Below are positions 49,518 through 57,793 of a stretch of 64,000 nucleotides of DNA, piece after piece; position 1 is the stretch's first letter; each line of letters starts with the position of its first letter. Position numbers and translations under genes: made by a program. Under the pieces are notes generated by a model. The model saw nothing but the letters and a program-made list of their open reading frames with translations. It searched no databases and was not told the origin of the DNA. This DNA comes from Gimesia aquarii. GTDB lineage: Bacteria; Planctomycetota; Planctomycetia; Planctomycetales; Planctomycetaceae. The stretch covers positions 6,779,952-6,843,951 of the forward strand of contig NZ_CP037422.1 of NCBI RefSeq assembly GCF_007748175.1, in the 5' to 3' direction.

Positions 49518-51719
49518 ATGGACCAGAACCAAGACGAACAAATCTTTAAAATCCAGGACATGGATTGTGTCGAAGAAGTTTCCGTGTTGAAACGGGAAAT
49601 TTCCCCACTCGTCGGTGGAGAGGAATATCTGTTTTTTGACATTCTCAATCGAAGAATGACAGTCAAGCCATCAACGCAACCTGTTTCTGCGGAAGCAGTG
49701 ATTCAAGCCATCAATGAAACCGGGATGCGGGCCGAGATCTGGGATGCAGAGAAACAACAAGCGGAATCCGGTTCATTCTGGTCGAAACAGGGACGCTCTC
49801 TACTGACTGGCTTGAGCGGTGTGATGATGTGCTCAGCGTTTCTGACTCATATCATTTTAGCAGGCAGTTTCAGCGCTGCCCTGGGTGCGGAAGAAACGGT
49901 CAACGCATCAATGCCGTTGCCTGTCCGTCTGCAATATCTGGCAGCCATCATCACAGGAATCTGGTTTGTGCTGCCTAAAGCCTGGTTTGCATTAAAGCGA
50001 TTACGACCGGATATGAATCTGTTGATGTGCATCGCTGTGATTGGAGCGCTATTTATAGATGAGTGGTTTGAAGCCGCGGCTGTCGCGTTTCTGTTCGCCT
50101 TCTCACAACTGCTGGAAGCCTGGAGTGTGGGTCGTGCACGCAAAGCAGTCGCGGCGTTAATGGACCTGACAACTCCGATTGCCCGTATTCGCGATGAGCA
50201 AGGAAACGAAACGACGGTCACACCCGAGTCTGTGGAAGTCGATACGATTTTTCTCATCCGACCGGGCGAAAAAATTCCGTTGGACGGCCGAGTGGTAAAA
50301 GGGGAAAGCGAAGTCAATCAGGCGCCCATTACAGGCGAATCGATCCCCATCATGAAACAAGTTGATGATGAAATTTTCGCAGGGACGATTAATGGGGACG
50401 GCCTGCTGGAAGCGAAATGTACCAAACTGGCGGAAGATACCATCCTTTCACAAATCATTCGCATGGTGGGAGAAGCGCAGACTCGCCGTGCGCCATCGGA
50501 AGTTTGGGTCGAAAAATTCGCTAAAGTTTATACACCAATTGTCATGGCGGCAGCATTGTTGATTTTGCTGACTCTGCCGCCTCTATTGCAAATTAGCTGG
50601 CACGATTCGCTTTATCGATCACTTGTGCTGTTAGTCATTGCCTGTCCTTGTGCACTTGTGATCTCCACGCCGGTCAGCATCGTGGCTTCGCTCGCAGCAG
50701 CAGCCCGGAATGGGGTGCTGATTAAAGGGGGCGAATTTGTTGAAGCACCTTCCAAATTGAAAGCGTTAGCGCTGGACAAAACAGGTACGCTCACACAAGG
50801 CAGACCTGTCGTCACCAAAATTGTTCCGTTGAACGGTCACACCGAATCAGAGTTACTTGAACGGGCCGCCGCACTGGAAGCGCACAGTAATCACCCTCTG
50901 GCGGTAGCAATTCTGGACGCGGTTGAAAAACAGAATGTCAAATATCAGCCGGCGGAAGACTACCAGATTATTCAAGGTAAAGGCGCAACGGCGCTGATTA
51001 ATGGGCGAGAATTCTGGCTGGGCTCTCATCGCTACCTGGAAGAGCGAAATGAAGAAACTCCCGAAGTACACCGGCAGCTTGAGGCGCTTTCGAACGCTGG
51101 TCAAACCGTAGTCGTTGTCGGGAATGAAACTCATGTCTGTGGTTTCATCGCTTTAGCAGATCGTGTGCGCGAGACATCGGCGGATGTGATTCGCGACCTA
51201 CACCATGAGGGTGTAAAACAGCTTGTCATGCTGACGGGTGACAACGCGGGCACTGCTCAAGCGGTTGCTGAAGAAGTGGGTATGGATACCGTGCATTCCG
51301 AATTACTGCCGGAAGATAAGCTCACCGTCATGGAATCGCTGGTGGAAGAATTCGAGTACGTGGCGATGGTCGGTGATGGCGTGAATGACGCGCCCGCAAT
51401 GAGTCGTTCGACTTTAGGAATTGCGATGGGAGCCGCTGGCAGTGATGTCGCCATCGAATCGGCTGACATCGCATTAATGACAGATGACCTGACCAAAATC
51501 CCGTGGCTGATTGGTCACTCGCACCGTACGTTGCGCATTATTCGTCAGAACATCATCTTTGCGTTGAGTATCAAAGTGTTATTCATGCTGTTGATGGTCT
51601 TTGACCAAGCCTCGTTGTGGGCAGCCATCGCCGCCGACATGGGGGCTTCACTGCTCGTCATATTCAATGGCCTGCGTTTGCTCCAGACGCCGGCAACGAC
51701 AAAGCTGAAAGAAGTGTGA
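49518..51719 (+). CDS. Heavy-metal P1B-type ATPase, zinc/cadmium type (ZntA/CadA-like)
   Basis: 733 residues. The N-terminal HMA-like domain has MDCVEE in place of the usual C-x-x-C; this resembles the MDCxxEE variant of some CadA proteins. The core has the metal-binding CPC in LVIACPCALVISTPVSIVAS, phosphorylation site DKTGTLTQGRP, HSNHPLA in the nucleotide-binding domain, and GDGVNDAPAMSRSTLGIAMG. The CPCALVISTP form is typical of Zn/Cd/Pb exporters rather than copper ones. A hydrophobic insertion after the HMA domain begins the membrane part. It exports divalent metal from the cytoplasm using ATP. Its stop lies 16 bases before the stop of the convergent AroDE gene. Confidence 0.93.
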   Translation: MDQNQDEQIFKIQDMDCVEEVSVLKREISPLVGGEEYLFFDILNRRMTVKPSTQPVSAEAVIQAINETGMRAEIWDAEKQQAESGSFWSKQGRSLLTGLSGVMMCSAFLTHIILAGSFSAALGAEETVNASMPLPVRLQYLAAIITGIWFVLPKAWFALKRLRPDMNLLMCIAVIGALFIDEWFEAAAVAFLFAFSQLLEAWSVGRARKAVAALMDLTTPIARIRDEQGNETTVTPESVEVDTIFLIRPGEKIPLDGRVVKGESEVNQAPITGESIPIMKQVDDEIFAGTINGDGLLEAKCTKLAEDTILSQIIRMVGEAQTRRAPSEVWVEKFAKVYTPIVMAAALLILLTLPPLLQISWHDSLYRSLVLLVIACPCALVISTPVSIVASLAAAARNGVLIKGGEFVEAPSKLKALALDKTGTLTQGRPVVTKIVPLNGHTESELLERAAALEAHSNHPLAVAILDAVEKQNVKYQPAEDYQIIQGKGATALINGREFWLGSHRYLEERNEETPEVHRQLEALSNAGQTVVVVGNETHVCGFIALADRVRETSADVIRDLHHEGVKQLVMLTGDNAGTAQAVAEEVGMDTVHSELLPEDKLTVMESLVEEFEYVAMVGDGVNDAPAMSRSTLGIAMGAAGSDVAIESADIALMTDDLTKIPWLIGHSHRTLRIIRQNIIFALSIKVLFMLLMVFDQASLWAAIAADMGASLLVIFNGLRLLQTPATTKLKEV

Positions 51720-51735
51720 CTCATTGTCACCGCGT

Positions 51736-53202
51736 TTACTTTGTATACTCGCTGCGACTTTCAAAGACTGCTTCTGGAATTTCCGATCCCGTAATCGCTT
51801 TGAAAATCTGATTGAGCTGTTTGCGGTATACTTCGTTTACATCGACGACTTCACACCCTCTGCCCTCGGCTTCGCGAATGAGTTCCGTTTCTTCGGGCAG
51901 CTGACTGATATCCATCACAGTCATTGTTTCGCGAAGGTATGCAGGATTAAATTCGGTCTTGCCAGGTCCCAGTTTTAATTCAGGGTCGGTCTGAATGACG
52001 ACGTCAGAAAGAGTATCGTATAAATTGGCAAACGGGACATAACGAACATCAAACATACGCGCGATTGCCTGGGCTGCTTTGTCGTTACCCGAAGCAACAC
52101 TGACAACAGCGCCCTGTTGCACCAGGCTATAAACGATGGCTTTTGTTAAACCACTGCTACCCAGGACGAGAATATTTTTACGCTGGAAGGCACTCGTTGA
52201 TCCTGTCGCATGCTCTTCAAAGGTGGCTTCGAGACTTTTCACTGCACTCCGCCGCACTGTATCGTAAGCGTGCCAACCATCTGGCTGATTGAGTTGCAAA
52301 TCCCCGTAACCGGTCGCTTGTGATGATTCTTCCAGATGCTCTGCCAGCGGTAAAATAAATTCTCCCATACGCGGGCTCACCACTAATGAGCGAATTTTTA
52401 GAATCCCCAGCATTTTATGAACTTGTTTGAAATCATTAATCATCAGTGGCAGGCAAATAAAATCCAGCCCCAACTGTTCTGAAGCTTTATTGAAGACTTC
52501 CACTGTGCGTCGTTCTGCGATACCTAAACCGGCAACACCGATAAAGCGTGTTTTGGCTGAGATTTTTTTGTGATGATAGACTTCATCTAATTCTGCCAAG
52601 GTCGGTTGCCCTTCGAAGGCTTCCATCCCTTTTTCCAGAGCAGCATAGATCCAGGGAGACCCATACTTCAAACCGAGTAATGAAAAGGTGATGCCTGCGG
52701 CTCCCAGCCCTAAACCGACCACCGGAATCTCCCGTTTCTGGCTGATCGCAGCGAGTAAAGGCCAGGCCGTTTGCAAGGTGGGAGTCGGCCAGGTGAATTT
52801 AATGATATCTGCCTTGGCATCTTCCATTTCATCAAAGATATCATCTACCGCAGCCAACGGTTTCATTAAACTCGTATAGCTAATAACACGTTTCGTTTTT
52901 CCGAATCGCGGAATCTGTTGAGCGGTCTCCAGATCTAGTTCGATATAAGCAGGTTCTGCGATGATGGCCTGCTTCAGTAGATTGATCCGTTCTGACTCGG
53001 TCCCTTTGAAAGACCCTCCCTCCTCGGGTCGACGACAGGAAACCAGAATGGGTACATCGAAGCCGGCGATCAAGTCTCCAATATCGGGGGTTTTAATCAA
53101 CCGATCCAGGCAGAGCTCCACCAAATCAGATTGTGCAGCAGCATTTAGAATATCCACTTTGGCAAAGCTACGGGATTCGGGAGTCACGGAGGTACAAATC
53201 AT
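51736..53202 (-). CDS. Bifunctional-type 3-dehydroquinate dehydratase (type I) / shikimate dehydrogenase fusion with degenerate active sites
   Basis: 488 residues: a type I AroD-like half (about 1-215) and an AroE-like half (about 220-485, with Rossmann motif NILVLGSSGLTKAIVYSL). AroD landmarks partly remain: VELCLD (Glu kept, Arg replaced by Cys), CRRPEEGG, ADIIKF with the Schiff-base Lys, and EGQPTLAEL. The catalytic His of the SxHD motif is Thr (VISYTSLM), and the Arg of the ISRL motif is Leu (TFSLLG). In the AroE half, the S-x-S shikimate site is AERR, and the Lys of the VTxPxK motif is Met (VVSPRMGE). The enzyme is probably altered or non-catalytic in at least one half; known planctomycete relatives would need comparing. 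Confidence 0.82.
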   Translation of the reverse strand: MICTSVTPESRSFAKVDILNAAAQSDLVELCLDRLIKTPDIGDLIAGFDVPILVSCRRPEEGGSFKGTESERINLLKQAIIAEPAYIELDLETAQQIPRFGKTKRVISYTSLMKPLAAVDDIFDEMEDAKADIIKFTWPTPTLQTAWPLLAAISQKREIPVVGLGLGAAGITFSLLGLKYGSPWIYAALEKGMEAFEGQPTLAELDEVYHHKKISAKTRFIGVAGLGIAERRTVEVFNKASEQLGLDFICLPLMINDFKQVHKMLGILKIRSLVVSPRMGEFILPLAEHLEESSQATGYGDLQLNQPDGWHAYDTVRRSAVKSLEATFEEHATGSTSAFQRKNILVLGSSGLTKAIVYSLVQQGAVVSVASGNDKAAQAIARMFDVRYVPFANLYDTLSDVVIQTDPELKLGPGKTEFNPAYLRETMTVMDISQLPEETELIREAEGRGCEVVDVNEVYRKQLNQIFKAITGSEIPEAVFESRSEYTK

Positions 53203-53359
53203 GCTGCTTCACAATCAATCTGAAATGAGATGGTAGAGCCAGAACACTTTTACAAATCGAAGCCCATCAATTATGCCAGATCTGTGTTGTAATGAAAGCG
53301 CCAATCTTGTTCTTCGGCAAATTTATTGACACGCTGATCGTTTTGTCTCTTTTCAATAA

Positions 53360-53398
53360 AAAACGCTTCCTCAGATGATAAAGTAGAGGAAGCGTTTT
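53360..53398 (-). terminator. Intrinsic terminator after the Cys-rich gene
   Basis: A perfect 13-base inverted repeat (53360-53372 and 53386-53398) with a 13-base loop lies about 68 bases after the stop of the gene at 53466. On the minus strand it is followed by a T-rich stretch, and T-rich sequence also follows on the plus strand, so it may act in both directions. Confidence 0.85.
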
Positions 53399-53465
53399 GT
53401 TTTCAAATCAGAAACAGGACCACTACGAGGGACTGACTCAAAAGTTACGCAGTGGTTTCTTTTTA

Positions 53466-53942
53466 CTATTTTCTGATTAGCGTCGCAGGAGCCAGTGGAG
53501 GTCGTGCTTTGGCGGATTGAGCTGGTTTTTGGACCGGCTTTTGGAGTGGTTTTTGAACAGCTGTTACGCAACTACCAGACGAGCAGGAATCACAGTTGCA
53601 TTCAACGGTCCACTTATATCCGCATTTCTCACAAGTATAATTATGCTTTTTCAGAACACGAACCGTTTTGATTTTCCCACATTTTAAATCACAACATTTC
53701 TGCCAGGGAAAACGTACGGGAGGAATACAGATATCCTTGCATTCAATATAGTAACAATGCTTTTTGACTTTTAATGTTTCCACATGCATTCGACAGGTTT
53801 TGCAACCCTGTGAACAGTAATTGGTGTTTCCACAAACACCTTTCGTCTGATCATAACAGGGCACTTGAGATTCGGCAAAGTTCCGGTGCCCACTTATGAG
53901 CGTGGCTGTGATCGCCAGTAAAATCATTCCTGGATATTTCAT
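53466..53942 (-). CDS. Small secreted Cys-rich protein
   Basis: Start placed at the ATG at 53942, 11 bases after AGG; an ATG three codons earlier sits only 1 base after the same AGGAA. About 158 residues, with signal peptide MKYPGMILLAITATLISG. The mature part has many cysteines in patterns such as YCSQGCKTCRMH, CKDICIPPVRFPWQKCCDLK and CEKCGYKW, followed by CNCDSCSSGSC and a Lys/Pro/Gln tail. This resembles Cys-rich planctomycete cell-wall or envelope proteins in which cysteines form disulfide networks; that is inference. A strong terminator follows. Confidence 0.8.
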   Translation of the reverse strand: MKYPGMILLAITATLISGHRNFAESQVPCYDQTKGVCGNTNYCSQGCKTCRMHVETLKVKKHCYYIECKDICIPPVRFPWQKCCDLKCGKIKTVRVLKKHNYTCEKCGYKWTVECNCDSCSSGSCVTAVQKPLQKPVQKPAQSAKARPPLAPATLIRK

Positions 53943-54006
53943 ATTACTCATTTCCTGAGAGATTAATTTTTTAGTATCACACTTTTAAATCAACACTATT
54001 CTGCTG

Positions 54007-55587
54007 TTAGAAGTCAACCATGAATCGTGCTCCAAAGATGTTTGACCGACCACCGGTGAAGCCATCAATCGGACCACGATCGTCAATTTGAGCATGGATA
54101 TAGTTGAACTGCAGGCGGGCATGCGAATTCCACCACCAAACCATACCAAACGTGAAGTTGCGTTCGTCACCACCAGTGATATCAGCATCAGTTAAGTTGA
54201 GGTAAGAATAGCGAGCAGCAATCTGCCAGGCCCCCCAACCACCGGCTTTGCCATCATCGCAGGTGTTGACTAAGAAAAAGTTTTCCAAAGGTTTCACACG
54301 AGCAATAGTACCTGTTCTACGATTGATGGGCTGGTACTCACCTGTCAGGAAGTAGGCTGCTTGCACATATGCACCATCGAAAGTGAGATCGGGTCCATCA
54401 TTACCACGTCCCACATTGGTAACCTGGTATTCACTCACAACTGAGAACGATCCGATGTTCAACATGAATTCGAAACCGAGCGTATTAAACCAGTCTGCTC
54501 CGGCAATTCGACCTGTATTTAACCAACGCACACTTCCCGTACGTGCTTCGGGTCGAGTTCGAAACCGGGCTTCGTTGTTATCAGAACTGGGTTCTACCAC
54601 GTCTCCATCCGGATGAGCCCACATATCGGCAATCCCCAGATGCAAGTAGCCACGACCGCCAGAGGTTTCATCATACCAGGGAGTTCCTGCCAAACGACCG
54701 TTCACACTCATTTGCCCTGCATCACCAACATAGGTTCCATCACTGGCAATATTCTCCAAATTATAAATACCATAGCGCCAGTTCCAGGTTTCGTCTTCAG
54801 AAACACCATAAGCGGCGATCCCCAAACGTCGGGCATCTTCATTGAATGCTTCGATTACCAGAGGACGTTCCAAGAACGTGTTGTAACGACTACTATTAAG
54901 GTGATCCATACCCAGGGGACGCTTCTGGTTACCAATCAAGAGCGTCTGAAAGACGGGTAGGTCCTTCCATCCGATATAAACATCTTTGAATGCAGGATCT
55001 CCGGGATTACCAAAGTCGTACTCGAATTTATAGAGCATGTTATCTTTAATATCACCGGAAACACCGATACGCAAACGACGAAATTCAAAACGGTTTTCTG
55101 GATCGGCTGGGTCTGCCGGATTATTAAAGGCAGCAATCCCCGGTGTACTATCAGAGAAATTCCATCCATCTAAATGAATTCGACCGAAGACTTTTAGGGT
55201 CGTAACTTTGGAAGCATCTTTTGCCTTTTTCGCCTGTTCGGACTCACTGAATTTCTTCCAGTCCTCTTCAAGAGTCGACAGGCGACTTTCCAGTGCGGGG
55301 TCTCCTTCGGCATTACGAAAACTGTTAATGAGCATTTCATCTGACTCATCAAGACTGCCTCCCACTTTTTCCAGTTGGGGTGGTAACACCGTGGCTTTTG
55401 CTGGCGCTGATGGTTGAGCCTTGGTTTTCTCCAGTTCCTGAATTCGACTCTCGGCGGCCTCTAATCGCTCGAGTAATCTTTCCAATTTATCAGAACTGAT
55501 TTTAGTGTCTTCAGCAAAGCTACTCTGAGAACGGAAGATCGTTCCTAAGAGAAGTAGAAACCCTGCAAATTTAATGAACGTGCGCAT
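54007..55587 (-). CDS. OprP/OprO-like porin (phosphate-selective porin family)
   Basis: The ATG at 55587 (6 bases after AGGG) is preferred over the one two codons earlier, giving 526 residues. The signal peptide (RTFIKFAGFLLLLGTIFRSQ) ends near SSFAED. A coiled-coil or helical region rich in E, K and A (about 30-115) follows, a trait of planctomycete porins that may attach to the wall. A beta-barrel part starts at FGRIHLDGWNF with NRFEFRRLRIGVSGDIKDNM and KFEYDFG, and the last residues FGARFMVDF end in Phe as outer-membrane beta-barrels do. Predicted role: uptake of phosphate or other anions through the outer membrane. Specificity is not provable. Confidence 0.9.
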   Translation of the reverse strand: MRTFIKFAGFLLLLGTIFRSQSSFAEDTKISSDKLERLLERLEAAESRIQELEKTKAQPSAPAKATVLPPQLEKVGGSLDESDEMLINSFRNAEGDPALESRLSTLEEDWKKFSESEQAKKAKDASKVTTLKVFGRIHLDGWNFSDSTPGIAAFNNPADPADPENRFEFRRLRIGVSGDIKDNMLYKFEYDFGNPGDPAFKDVYIGWKDLPVFQTLLIGNQKRPLGMDHLNSSRYNTFLERPLVIEAFNEDARRLGIAAYGVSEDETWNWRYGIYNLENIASDGTYVGDAGQMSVNGRLAGTPWYDETSGGRGYLHLGIADMWAHPDGDVVEPSSDNNEARFRTRPEARTGSVRWLNTGRIAGADWFNTLGFEFMLNIGSFSVVSEYQVTNVGRGNDGPDLTFDGAYVQAAYFLTGEYQPINRRTGTIARVKPLENFFLVNTCDDGKAGGWGAWQIAARYSYLNLTDADITGGDERNFTFGMVWWWNSHARLQFNYIHAQIDDRGPIDGFTGGRSNIFGARFMVDF

Positions 55588-56088
55588 ACTCATCCCTGAT
55601 GGTTGATCGCCTGGAAGTCATGACAAGCGATTCTGTACTAAATTTACGTGTTATGCGGCTATGTACGAATAGTCCGATTATGAGGGTCTTATCGGCTGTT
55701 CTTTTTTTAAGCGAATATTAAGAAACGATGAAGGACCTTAACATTTACCCCTTCAACGCGCACACGCCTGAAAGAAAACCTAACCGTTACAGTTTAACAT
55801 TTAAAAGGTGTTCCGATTTGAACTTACCCTCGGTAAATGAGTGATTTCACTTGGAAATCACTGGGATCTGGTATTCAAAACCTTAAGGTTGAAATTCAAT
55901 GATCCGGATTCATTACCGAGCAAAAGTTCAGAATCTCCTCAAATACAGTCAGAGAAGGCTCTTGCTATGATCCTTCACAAAAGCTAAAGTCATTCGCAAC
56001 TAATTTGCTATTACAATATGCGAGTGACGCTTGGCCTGGAAATCTGGGAAACTCACTCTATCTGGATCTCTGGTGGCTTTTTAACTCA
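55588..56088. other. Divergent intergenic region between porin and ZIP genes
   Basis: About 500 bases with no gene. The chief element is the inverted repeat at 55840-55862, listed separately. Frames extending the ZIP gene upstream begin with TTG and are not supported. Confidence 0.5.
55840..55862. promoter_or_regulatory. Perfect 9-base inverted repeat upstream of the ZIP gene
   Basis: AGTGATTTC, a 5-base spacer, then GAAATCACT. It is about 227 bases before the ZIP start and 250 after the porin start. There is no T run, so it is more like an operator than a terminator. Metal-regulator binding is a guess. Confidence 0.4.
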
Positions 56089-57219
56089 ATGAAACCGCTC
56101 TCTCACTTCAAAAATGACGTTAAACTTACGTTACTCTTAATGACGATTCCTCTCGTTCTGTTTTTGATCGCACCCGGATTTTTTGTTTCGCAACCTACAT
56201 TGGCGGCTGAACATACTCATCCACATACTGAATCTGAAAACACATCGGAATCATCAACAGTTGCAAATGCGGATACAAAAGCACCAATCAGCATCATGTG
56301 GGCTTATACTCTATTGGGTGTTTATTGTAGTGTCATCGTATTCTCTTCCCTGCTGGGTGGGTGGTTACCATCACTCATTCGCTTGACTCACACGCGCATG
56401 GAAACGCTGATCAGTTTCGTCGGTGGGCTCATGCTGGGAATTGGCGTATTCCATCTGCTGCCTCACGCCGTAGCTGAAATGGGCTCCGTTGATCGCGCTG
56501 TCTGGTGGATGATGGCCGGTATCCTGACACTGTTTTTCCTGATCCGTACCTTCCATTTTCACCAACACGGCACCGTAGAGCTTGACGAGGACGAAGAACA
56601 CACGCACGATCATGACTGCGACCATCACCACGCTCATGCTCACGTGCACTCACATACGCATTCCCATAAATTGAGTTGGGTCGGTATTGCCTTAGGCTTA
56701 GCACTGCACACTCTGATTGACGGGCTGGCTTTGGGTGCGAGTATCATTGCCGAGCAACATCATGAAGTCTTTCTGTCTTTGTTCGGACTGGGAACGTTTC
56801 TGGCAATCACATTACATAAACCTCTCGATGCTGTTTCGATCACTTCTTTGATGGCTGCAGGAGGCTGGTCTGCAGGTTGGCGCAATGCCGTGAATATTGG
56901 TTTTGCTTTAATGTGCCCATTAGGAGCTTTGTTGTTTTTCCTGGGAGTTCAACAATTTTCGGAAAATCAACATATCATCATCGGATGCGCGCTTGCCTTT
57001 TCGGCGGGCGTATTTATCTGTATTTCTCTGGGAGACTTACTGCCGGAAATGGAATTTCATTCGCATAACCGGTTTCGACTCTCCTTTGTGCTACTGCTGG
57101 GTATCGCACTCGCATATGGAATTGGTTTCATTGAACCTGACCATGTCCATCACCATGGCAGTCATGGAGCGGATTCTTCAAATCACGAAGCCGAGCACTC
57201 ACACAATCACAGTCACTAG
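56089..57219 (+). CDS. ZIP family metal transporter
   Basis: About 376 residues from the ATG at 56089, the first ATG in the frame; the frame could start at a TTG 28 codons earlier, but no ribosome site supports that. The first hydrophobic segment ends near PTLAAEH and is followed by a His-rich stretch. Typical ZIP features: TM4 motif LHTLIDGLALGASI and TM5 LHKPLDAVS provide the metal site, and a His-rich cytoplasmic loop (EHTHDHDCDHHHAHAHVHSH) and His-rich C-terminus bind metal. Eight or so hydrophobic segments. It imports zinc or other divalent metal. It converges with the Fur-type regulator, stops 17 bases apart. Confidence 0.9.
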   Translation: MKPLSHFKNDVKLTLLLMTIPLVLFLIAPGFFVSQPTLAAEHTHPHTESENTSESSTVANADTKAPISIMWAYTLLGVYCSVIVFSSLLGGWLPSLIRLTHTRMETLISFVGGLMLGIGVFHLLPHAVAEMGSVDRAVWWMMAGILTLFFLIRTFHFHQHGTVELDEDEEHTHDHDCDHHHAHAHVHSHTHSHKLSWVGIALGLALHTLIDGLALGASIIAEQHHEVFLSLFGLGTFLAITLHKPLDAVSITSLMAAGGWSAGWRNAVNIGFALMCPLGALLFFLGVQQFSENQHIIIGCALAFSAGVFICISLGDLLPEMEFHSHNRFRLSFVLLLGIALAYGIGFIEPDHVHHHGSHGADSSNHEAEHSHNHSH

Positions 57220-57236
57220 ACGAGTTTTATTCCCGC

Positions 57237-57680
57237 TCAAGCTTCGTCGCATTCACTGCAAATTCCCTTCAGGAGAATTTCTGTCACTTTTCCTACCTGA
57301 GACCAATGCTTATTACTGGGTGTCTTGAATTCGACATCATGGAGACAGGAAACACTGCCACATTCGGTACAGACAAAATGAGGGTGCTCAGCATCCTCCG
57401 GTTCATTGGGATCGCGTAATTCAAATCGCCACGCATGATCTCCAAGTTCTGTTCGTTTGACGAGCCCCGCTTCAGCAAGATCGATGAGATTACGATAGAC
57501 GGTCGCCTTGTCGAATCCCATCGGCGTCAGATCTTCGGCAATCTCTGCGTGCGTAAGAGGTGATGAGGCCTGACGTAGAAACTGAATGACTGTAATTCGG
57601 GCCGCAGTGCTTCGCAGGCCACTATTTCGCACCAGTGTGCGAATTTCATCAATTTCTTCTGCCTGGGACAGATTTTTCAT
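57237..57680 (-). CDS. Fur family transcription regulator (Zur-like by context)
   Basis: The ATG at 57680 gives 147 residues, the usual Fur length; a GTG start seven codons earlier is possible. The N-terminal winged-helix part contains SGLRSTAARITVIQFLRQAS and KATVYRNLIDLAEAGLVKR, the DNA-recognition region. HPHFVCTECG, then CLHDV and CSEC, supply His ligands and two Cys pairs for structural zinc. The family represses metal genes. Zur-type function is suggested by the adjoining ZIP transporter and the P1B ATPase a few kilobases away; PerR or Fur cannot be excluded. Confidence 0.88.
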   Translation of the reverse strand: MKNLSQAEEIDEIRTLVRNSGLRSTAARITVIQFLRQASSPLTHAEIAEDLTPMGFDKATVYRNLIDLAEAGLVKRTELGDHAWRFELRDPNEPEDAEHPHFVCTECGSVSCLHDVEFKTPSNKHWSQVGKVTEILLKGICSECDEA

Positions 57681-57793
57681 TGCGATATATCCGGGTGCCA
57701 CATCGGGTCATTAAATAAAAACAATCCACTTCGTCAGGGCTATGTTAACAATTATATACACAGATTACGAGATTCAGGATCATAATTGTCGGT

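Follow-up and report, generated by a model that had tools for sequence, protein, structure and literature searches.

A divergent AroD-AroE paralogue of Gimesia and its family that keeps the predicted fold and has lost residues needed for the reactions of both enzymes

Can a gene that has the layout of a fused AroD-AroE enzyme, and lacks residues by which both of its halves would work, still serve the cell, and in what capacity? The question is raised by a reading frame on the minus strand of the window, by which we mean the whole stretch of 64,000 nucleotides of Gimesia aquarii DNA that was analysed. The preliminary description of this DNA had reported an AroD-AroE fusion, intact at 488 codons, and this is borne out: the frame opens with ATG and occupies positions 51736-53202 of the minus strand. 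We use the label DIV for the divergent AroD-AroE paralogue that is encoded there. The gene and its two halves are placed as follows.

51736..53202, minus strand: DIV gene, relative of AroD-AroE, intact ORF of 488 codons (488 aa), ATG start
52573..53202, minus strand: AroD-like (type I dehydroquinase) half, TIM barrel, residues 1-210 (Pfam match at residues 3-209; match to 2yr1)
51739..52566, minus strand: AroE-like (shikimate dehydrogenase) half, residues 213-488, with a degenerate active site and a partly degenerate NADP site

In the Pfam scan, PF01487 (DHquinase_I) matches DIV at 3e-35 with 122.8 bits against a cut-off of 22.2; the AroE half reaches 17.3 bits with PF01488, under the cut-off of 24.3, and the 3 matches of PF08501 (Shikimate_dh_N) in a profile search of the own genome all lie outside DIV. 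The bifunctional AroDE equivalog model of NCBIfam, PRK09310.1, gives DIV 69.4 bits with a cut-off of 598, and NCBI single-enzyme AroD and AroE models align to it with scores far under their cut-offs. The closest solved structure is Arabidopsis DHQ-SDH 2gpt, matched over the full length by the single sequence (phmmer, 4.5e-30) and with its entire length covered by a profile built from 67 DIV orthologues (4.5e-60). The AlphaFold2 model (mean pLDDT 92.1, pTM 0.88) has a two-domain fold; this predicted structure superposes on 2o7q (463 residues, Z 36.9, rmsd 2.6), its residues 1-219 align with 2yr1 (VIA-align Z 25.4, 215 aligned), and the AroE fold is predicted as well (2hk7, Z 28.0, 258 aligned, rmsd 2.4). 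The normal AroDE was also modelled, with pLDDT 94.1. DIV is therefore predicted to be a well-folded protein of the AroD-AroE type. In 51500-54100, no Rfam family reached its gathering score, and a scan for promoters and terminators, with 0 promoter-like sites and 3 terminator-like sites against 1.9 expected, was uninformative.

Active-site positions are named here by the residue numbers and roles of the E. coli and Salmonella enzymes, which we take to be His143, Lys170, Arg213, Arg48, Arg82, Glu46, Glu86, Gln236 and Asn86. Three alignments were used (phmmer to 2gpt, MAFFT with 40 normal planctomycete AroDE, and hhalign of two profiles), and residues were tallied over 124 distinct full-length DIV members, 35 short or identical rows having been removed from 159. 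The codons concerned are the following.

52873..52875, minus strand: Thr110, replacing the catalytic His (His143); 3 alignments; T 107, A 11, H 2, and V, R, N and S 1 each (n=124)
52798..52800, minus strand: Lys135, the kept Schiff-base Lys (Lys170); 3 alignments; K 123/124, R 1
52681..52683, minus strand: Ser174, replacing the carboxylate-binding Arg213; 3 alignments; S 113/124, R 0/124
53110..53112, minus strand: Cys31, replacing Arg48; 3 alignments; C 90/124, R 18/124
52504..52512, minus strand: Arg231-x-Thr233, replacing the shikimate-binding S-x-S; 3 alignments; first Ser 5/124, second 4/124
52363..52365, minus strand: Gly280, replacing the dehydrogenase catalytic Lys; 3 alignments; G 71/124, K 1/124
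52300..52302, minus strand: Asp301, replacing the substrate-binding Asn (Asn86); 3 alignments; D 114/124, N 8/124
52255..52257, minus strand: Val316, replacing the dehydrogenase catalytic Asp; 3 alignments; D 0/124

A shifted alignment as the cause of the missing residues is ruled out, since the three alignments place the losses alike. The preliminary description had read the catalytic His of the dehydratase as Thr, which Thr110 confirms, and the Schiff-base Lys as retained, as it is in Lys135. It had also called the Arg partners changed; this is right for Arg48 and Arg213 (Cys31 and Ser174), but Arg57, the equivalent of Arg82, is retained. The absence of S-x-S and of the catalytic Lys from the dehydrogenase half, claimed there too, is real (R-x-T and Gly280), and the Asp is lost in addition. 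The AroD residues kept in DIV are thus Glu29 (Glu46), Arg57 (Arg82), Lys135 and Gln199 (Gln236), with the protein's own Glu61 as the acid at Glu86; across the members, Glu46 and Arg82 are found in 124/124, Lys170 in 123/124 and Gln236 in 116/124. The residue at the His place varies (T, A, H, S, V, N, R), so that DIV has no constant acid-base group there, and the Lys-Asp pair of the dehydrogenase is complete in 0/124. An alignment with planctomycete homologues had been suggested as a check; it shows that the changes are common to the orthologues (His in 2/124, Arg213 in 0, dehydrogenase Lys in 1, Asp in 0). All 40 of 40 normal AroDE of the class have His, Lys, Arg213, S-x-S and the dehydrogenase Lys, Asn and Asp. 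Among 19 AroDE proteins from outside the class, both Lys are present in 19/19, His in 17 (2 have Tyr) and Asp in 18 (1 has Glu); in a 20th such protein (L234) the AroD site is normal and the AroE half degenerate.

The plant DHQ-SDH (2gpt/2o7q) and the normal planctomycete AroDE (L002) have an identical two-domain order that matches DIV from end to end, as well as the Schiff-base Lys, whereas DIV is without the AroD His, Arg48 and Arg213 and without the AroE S-x-S, Lys and Asp. DIV is an AroDE paralogue in which the predicted fold is kept in both halves and residues needed in the AroD and AroE reactions are lost. Judged by its sequence, it is homologous to AroD and AroE, yet by catalytic residues it is a member of neither enzyme.

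Whether separate aroD/aroQ and aroE genes exist in the genome had been posed as a further check. The own Gimesia genome is one contig of 7.2 Mb, and it holds a separate, complete AroDE of 498 aa with every catalytic residue, followed by aroK (shikimate kinase), and two more AroE-type genes; a profile search of the same genome gave no match to type II dehydroquinase. DIV as a replacement of the normal enzyme is ruled out in the own genome, the normal AroDE being present. A further AroE-type gene lies at G000:C1:3862796-3863032 (L137) and a second shikimate-kinase match at G000:C1:7098964-7099425 (L239). The genes of DIV and of normal AroDE are 64 kb apart, and in one-contig Gimesia genomes this distance ranges from the own 64 kb to 2.8 Mb (G014). 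In another genome, G042 (L088:2958-8501), normal AroDE and the DIV copy are convergent with 2.5 kb between them.

A DIV copy is found in 85/91 genomes of the family that includes Gimesia (own genome counted; best E below 1e-90), a count that takes in fragments at contig ends and the broken G001 copy. Six family genomes are without DIV (G032, G037, G052, G065, G069 and G080); they carry normal AroDE or a piece of one, and two of them, G037 and G065, are at 97 and 100% completeness. In other families of the class, DIV occurs in 5/58 sampled genomes (below 1e-70; G093, G107, G122, G125 and G140). Outside the class, 19 of 20 stretches among the matches listed fall outside the DIV clade in the tree, and the remaining one, L234, has normal AroD residues. 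In one Gimesia with a one-contig genome (G001), the DIV gene (L029) is broken by two frameshifts and the 95.6%-identical L016 is intact; the break is a recent loss or a sequencing error. DIV is therefore dispensable in places, as its absence from six genomes of the family and the broken copy of one Gimesia show. Moreover, three drafts (G011, G015 and G078) have a DIV copy and no normal AroDE was seen in them. The normal gene is probably missing because these bins are incomplete, but the completeness of G011 is rated at 100%, and the statement that normal AroDE does the work does not extend to every genome.

DIV proteins form one clade apart from normal AroDE (SH-aLRT 100). Trees made half by half give the same groups, with the DIV clade at 100 in both and the other groups at 72 to 99; as each half alone yields these groups, the fusion diverged as a unit. 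Being unrooted, the tree with its three groups fits an ancient duplication as well as one that took place inside the class. The 120-row alignment omitted 9 duplicate loci, L003 and the partial or broken L017, L018 and L029; L234 was excluded from the normal set in the tree and the constancy counts, and the normal AroDE of G042 was counted twice (L088, L168) among the 60 normal rows, a doubling that also underlies the Glu190/Leu189 comparison and the test of conservation at the mouth given below. Further copies were seen as well. G093 has three DIV-type copies (L082, L130 and L131), of which two have very long branches, and G041 has a second DIV-type copy (L075) with more pocket changes. In family f42, of another lineage of the phylum (loci L252, L255, L257, L259-L262 and L264), the genomes G335, G365, G423, G468, G384 and G401 have a second, shorter copy (327-340 aa) whose AroE half is truncated and degenerate and whose AroD site is intact, except that G401 has two residues changed, including Ser for Arg213. 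The full-length copy of G335 and G423 has Tyr for the AroD His and Leu for Arg48, with the AroE site largely intact; this pattern suggests that a fused enzyme was duplicated and the copies then decayed in complementary halves.

Is the gene maintained? Within Gimesia, DIV has a median dN/dS of 0.044 (66 of 91 pairs usable) and normal AroDE has 0.044 (4 of 6 pairs usable), values that are rough with dS near saturation and saturated pairs left out (25/91 for DIV, 2/6 for normal). By halves, the dN/dS of DIV is 0.031 for AroD (68 usable pairs) and 0.055 for AroE (64 usable). Selection on DIV thus equals that on normal AroDE, from which it follows that the gene has a role. The preliminary description had suggested that the protein may have taken on a new role or may work by another mechanism; shared changes, a separate AroDE and selection equal to that on the normal enzyme support this suggestion. 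In the 28 genomes with both copies (378 pairs), the mean identity of the AroD half is 0.652 for DIV vs 0.649 for normal AroDE, and that of the AroE half is 0.384 vs 0.552. Among positions constant in the normal enzyme (at least 97% of 60 rows), 8/17 of the AroD half and 4/29 of the AroE half are kept in at least 90% of DIV. The catalytic mouth was set from strand ends of the predicted model, which makes for a crude test; by this measure, conserved positions of the normal enzyme crowd the mouth (22/56 vs 34/152, p 0.013) and those of the DIV AroD half show no crowding there (15/56 vs 35/152, p 0.35). Positions specific to the DIV clade are slightly commoner at the mouth (12/56 vs 22/152, p 0.16), and a stricter mouth definition was again negative for the DIV clade (p 0.35 and 0.17).

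The gene neighbourhood was compared over 61 long-flank loci. A CehA/McbA metallohydrolase gene lies upstream of DIV on the same strand in 12/61 of them, 0 in Gimesia, and in 28/130 loci of a wider, partly redundant set that holds several genomes twice; three of these proteins were tested and identified by NCBIfam at 4e-82 to 9e-86. Near relatives of this protein are also found away from DIV (e.g. in G042) and in the DIV-less G032, and Gimesia has other CehA/McbA-type proteins elsewhere, 44-49% identical; because such relatives occur elsewhere in the genomes, the link to DIV is weak. No other neighbour has a fixed place across many genera in the 61 loci, and no regulator-family gene at a fixed place across genera was seen among the annotated neighbours. 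At three loci a membrane-fusion protein gene follows past the metallohydrolase, three loci of one subclade have an enoyl-ACP reductase gene upstream of DIV, and P-type ATPase, porin, ZIP and FUR genes are constant in position only among the 4 Gimesia loci. Within the window, the following genes were noted around DIV, of which ZIP, FUR and the P-type ATPase are probable metal homeostasis genes.

49518-51719: P-type ATPase gene
53466-53951, minus strand: small cysteine-rich 161-aa protein, directly upstream of the DIV gene; its start is signal-like, and Pfam has no match to it
54007-55593: porin gene, further upstream beyond the gene of the cysteine-rich protein
56005-57701: convergent gene pair, a ZIP zinc transporter and a FUR-family regulator

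Known relatives offer a comparison. The fungal QutR, GaaX and TanX are relatives with AroD/AroE domains that are taken as inactive and proposed to read inducers (PMC10512348, PMC6528562), the likely inducer of GaaX being 2-keto-3-deoxy-L-galactonate (PMC6528562). As described there, QutR, qa-1S, GaaX and TanX are like DIV in being dehydroquinase and shikimate dehydrogenase homologues beside a working enzyme, and DIV has both QutR-type domains without the full catalytic set. The fungal repressors of the QutR type differ in that they have a shikimate-kinase-like part and an adjacent gene of a Zn2Cys6 activator (PMC10512348, PMC6528562). The Pfam scan detected in DIV no shikimate-kinase-like part, PF01202 matching only two other places of the genome, and no DNA-binding domain. 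The dehydroquinase domain of Candida albicans Aro1 is likewise of type I with its catalytic His replaced, and it is inactive; unlike DIV, it belongs to a five-domain enzyme with the other four working and has no suitable Lys, and a type II enzyme can compensate for its loss (PMC9074039). In the portion of the open-licence literature listed, judged by title and the start of the abstract, we found no paper on DIV.

We propose that DIV is a pseudoenzyme whose barrel would still bind a ligand and which would report or regulate through a partner, by analogy with QutR or GaaX but without being one of them; in our judgement the case for this reading is evenly balanced. Beyond the loss of residues for each canonical reaction and the retention of the gene, we infer every functional step. 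A ligand with a carbonyl group would still be held in the pocket of Glu29, Arg57, Lys135 and Gln199, perhaps bound to Lys135 as an imine that is unable to proceed to dehydration. Imine formation may persist when the Lys lacks its His, and a 1995 paper of Leech bears the title 'Stalled catalysis in a histidine to alanine mutant'. The imine would stall before dehydration because the His is gone; in fact, with the catalytic His absent from the sequence, dehydration would not be expected in DIV. In line with this, E. coli AroD H143Q lost its activity in an assay, and the Aro1 domain of C. albicans, inactive as said, has Gln at the His place (PMC9074039). Without the Arg that binds the carboxylate, dehydroquinate itself is doubtful as the ligand, and another keto-acid or keto-sugar would be equally likely. 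Binding would then alter the contact of DIV with its partner, perhaps through the faster-evolving AroE half, and the cell would thereby read out a metabolite. The narrower claim, that DIV is a bacterial counterpart of QutR and GaaX with an independent origin, in which a disarmed AroDE would trap a keto-metabolite on its retained Lys as an imine and so report it to the cell, is rather unlikely as it stands in full.

Perhaps Lys135 runs some other Schiff-base reaction on a different substrate, as in an aldolase, lyase or isomerase, with a residue such as Glu29 or Glu190 in acid-base catalysis and the AroE half as a leftover scaffold. Such a new enzyme is a possibility that we hold as tentative: the near-invariance of Lys, Glu46 and Arg82 would suit it, as would Glu190 and Leu189, which are constant across the DIV clade (122 sequences) but differ from the residues of the normal enzyme, an AroD half constrained like that of the active enzyme beside a relaxed AroE half, and the slight excess of clade-specific positions at the mouth, whereas the His place is chemically variable, conservation has no focus on the catalytic mouth, and no recurring pathway neighbour hints at a substrate. 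Constraint that lies across the barrel and not at the mouth would also agree with a partner subunit, in which DIV forms a pair with normal AroDE, or with some other enzyme of the shikimate pathway, and adjusts its activity. A precedent is the trypanosomatid deoxyhypusine synthase, where a catalytically dead paralogue activates its partner (PMC3663545). Each of the 28 genomes compared has normal AroDE beside DIV, and the entire fold appears to be retained in the model. Yet the six family genomes that lack DIV have normal AroDE, whole or in part, the three drafts show the reverse, DIV is rare in the other families of the class, and the two genes are far apart in the own Gimesia genome; we regard this pairing as improbable.

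A decaying duplicate or a sequencing artefact, devoid of function, is hardly credible. The one broken Gimesia copy and the six family genomes without DIV fit such decay, but the selection results already contradict it: the low dN/dS, the AroD half constrained like that of the enzyme, and the 124 distinct full-length members with shared substitutions rule out a pseudogene.

Disarmed shikimate enzymes as readers of metabolites are known from fungi. If the reading of DIV as a ligand-binding pseudoenzyme is true, it would add a bacterial, family-wide case under enzyme-grade selection, and this route would have been taken more than once. Moreover, with its Lys kept and its His discarded, DIV would then provide a clean system for testing imine-trapping sensors. 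For annotation the finding is a warning, as the AroD half passes as a dehydroquinase by its Pfam score, and DIV should not enter metabolic models as such an enzyme.
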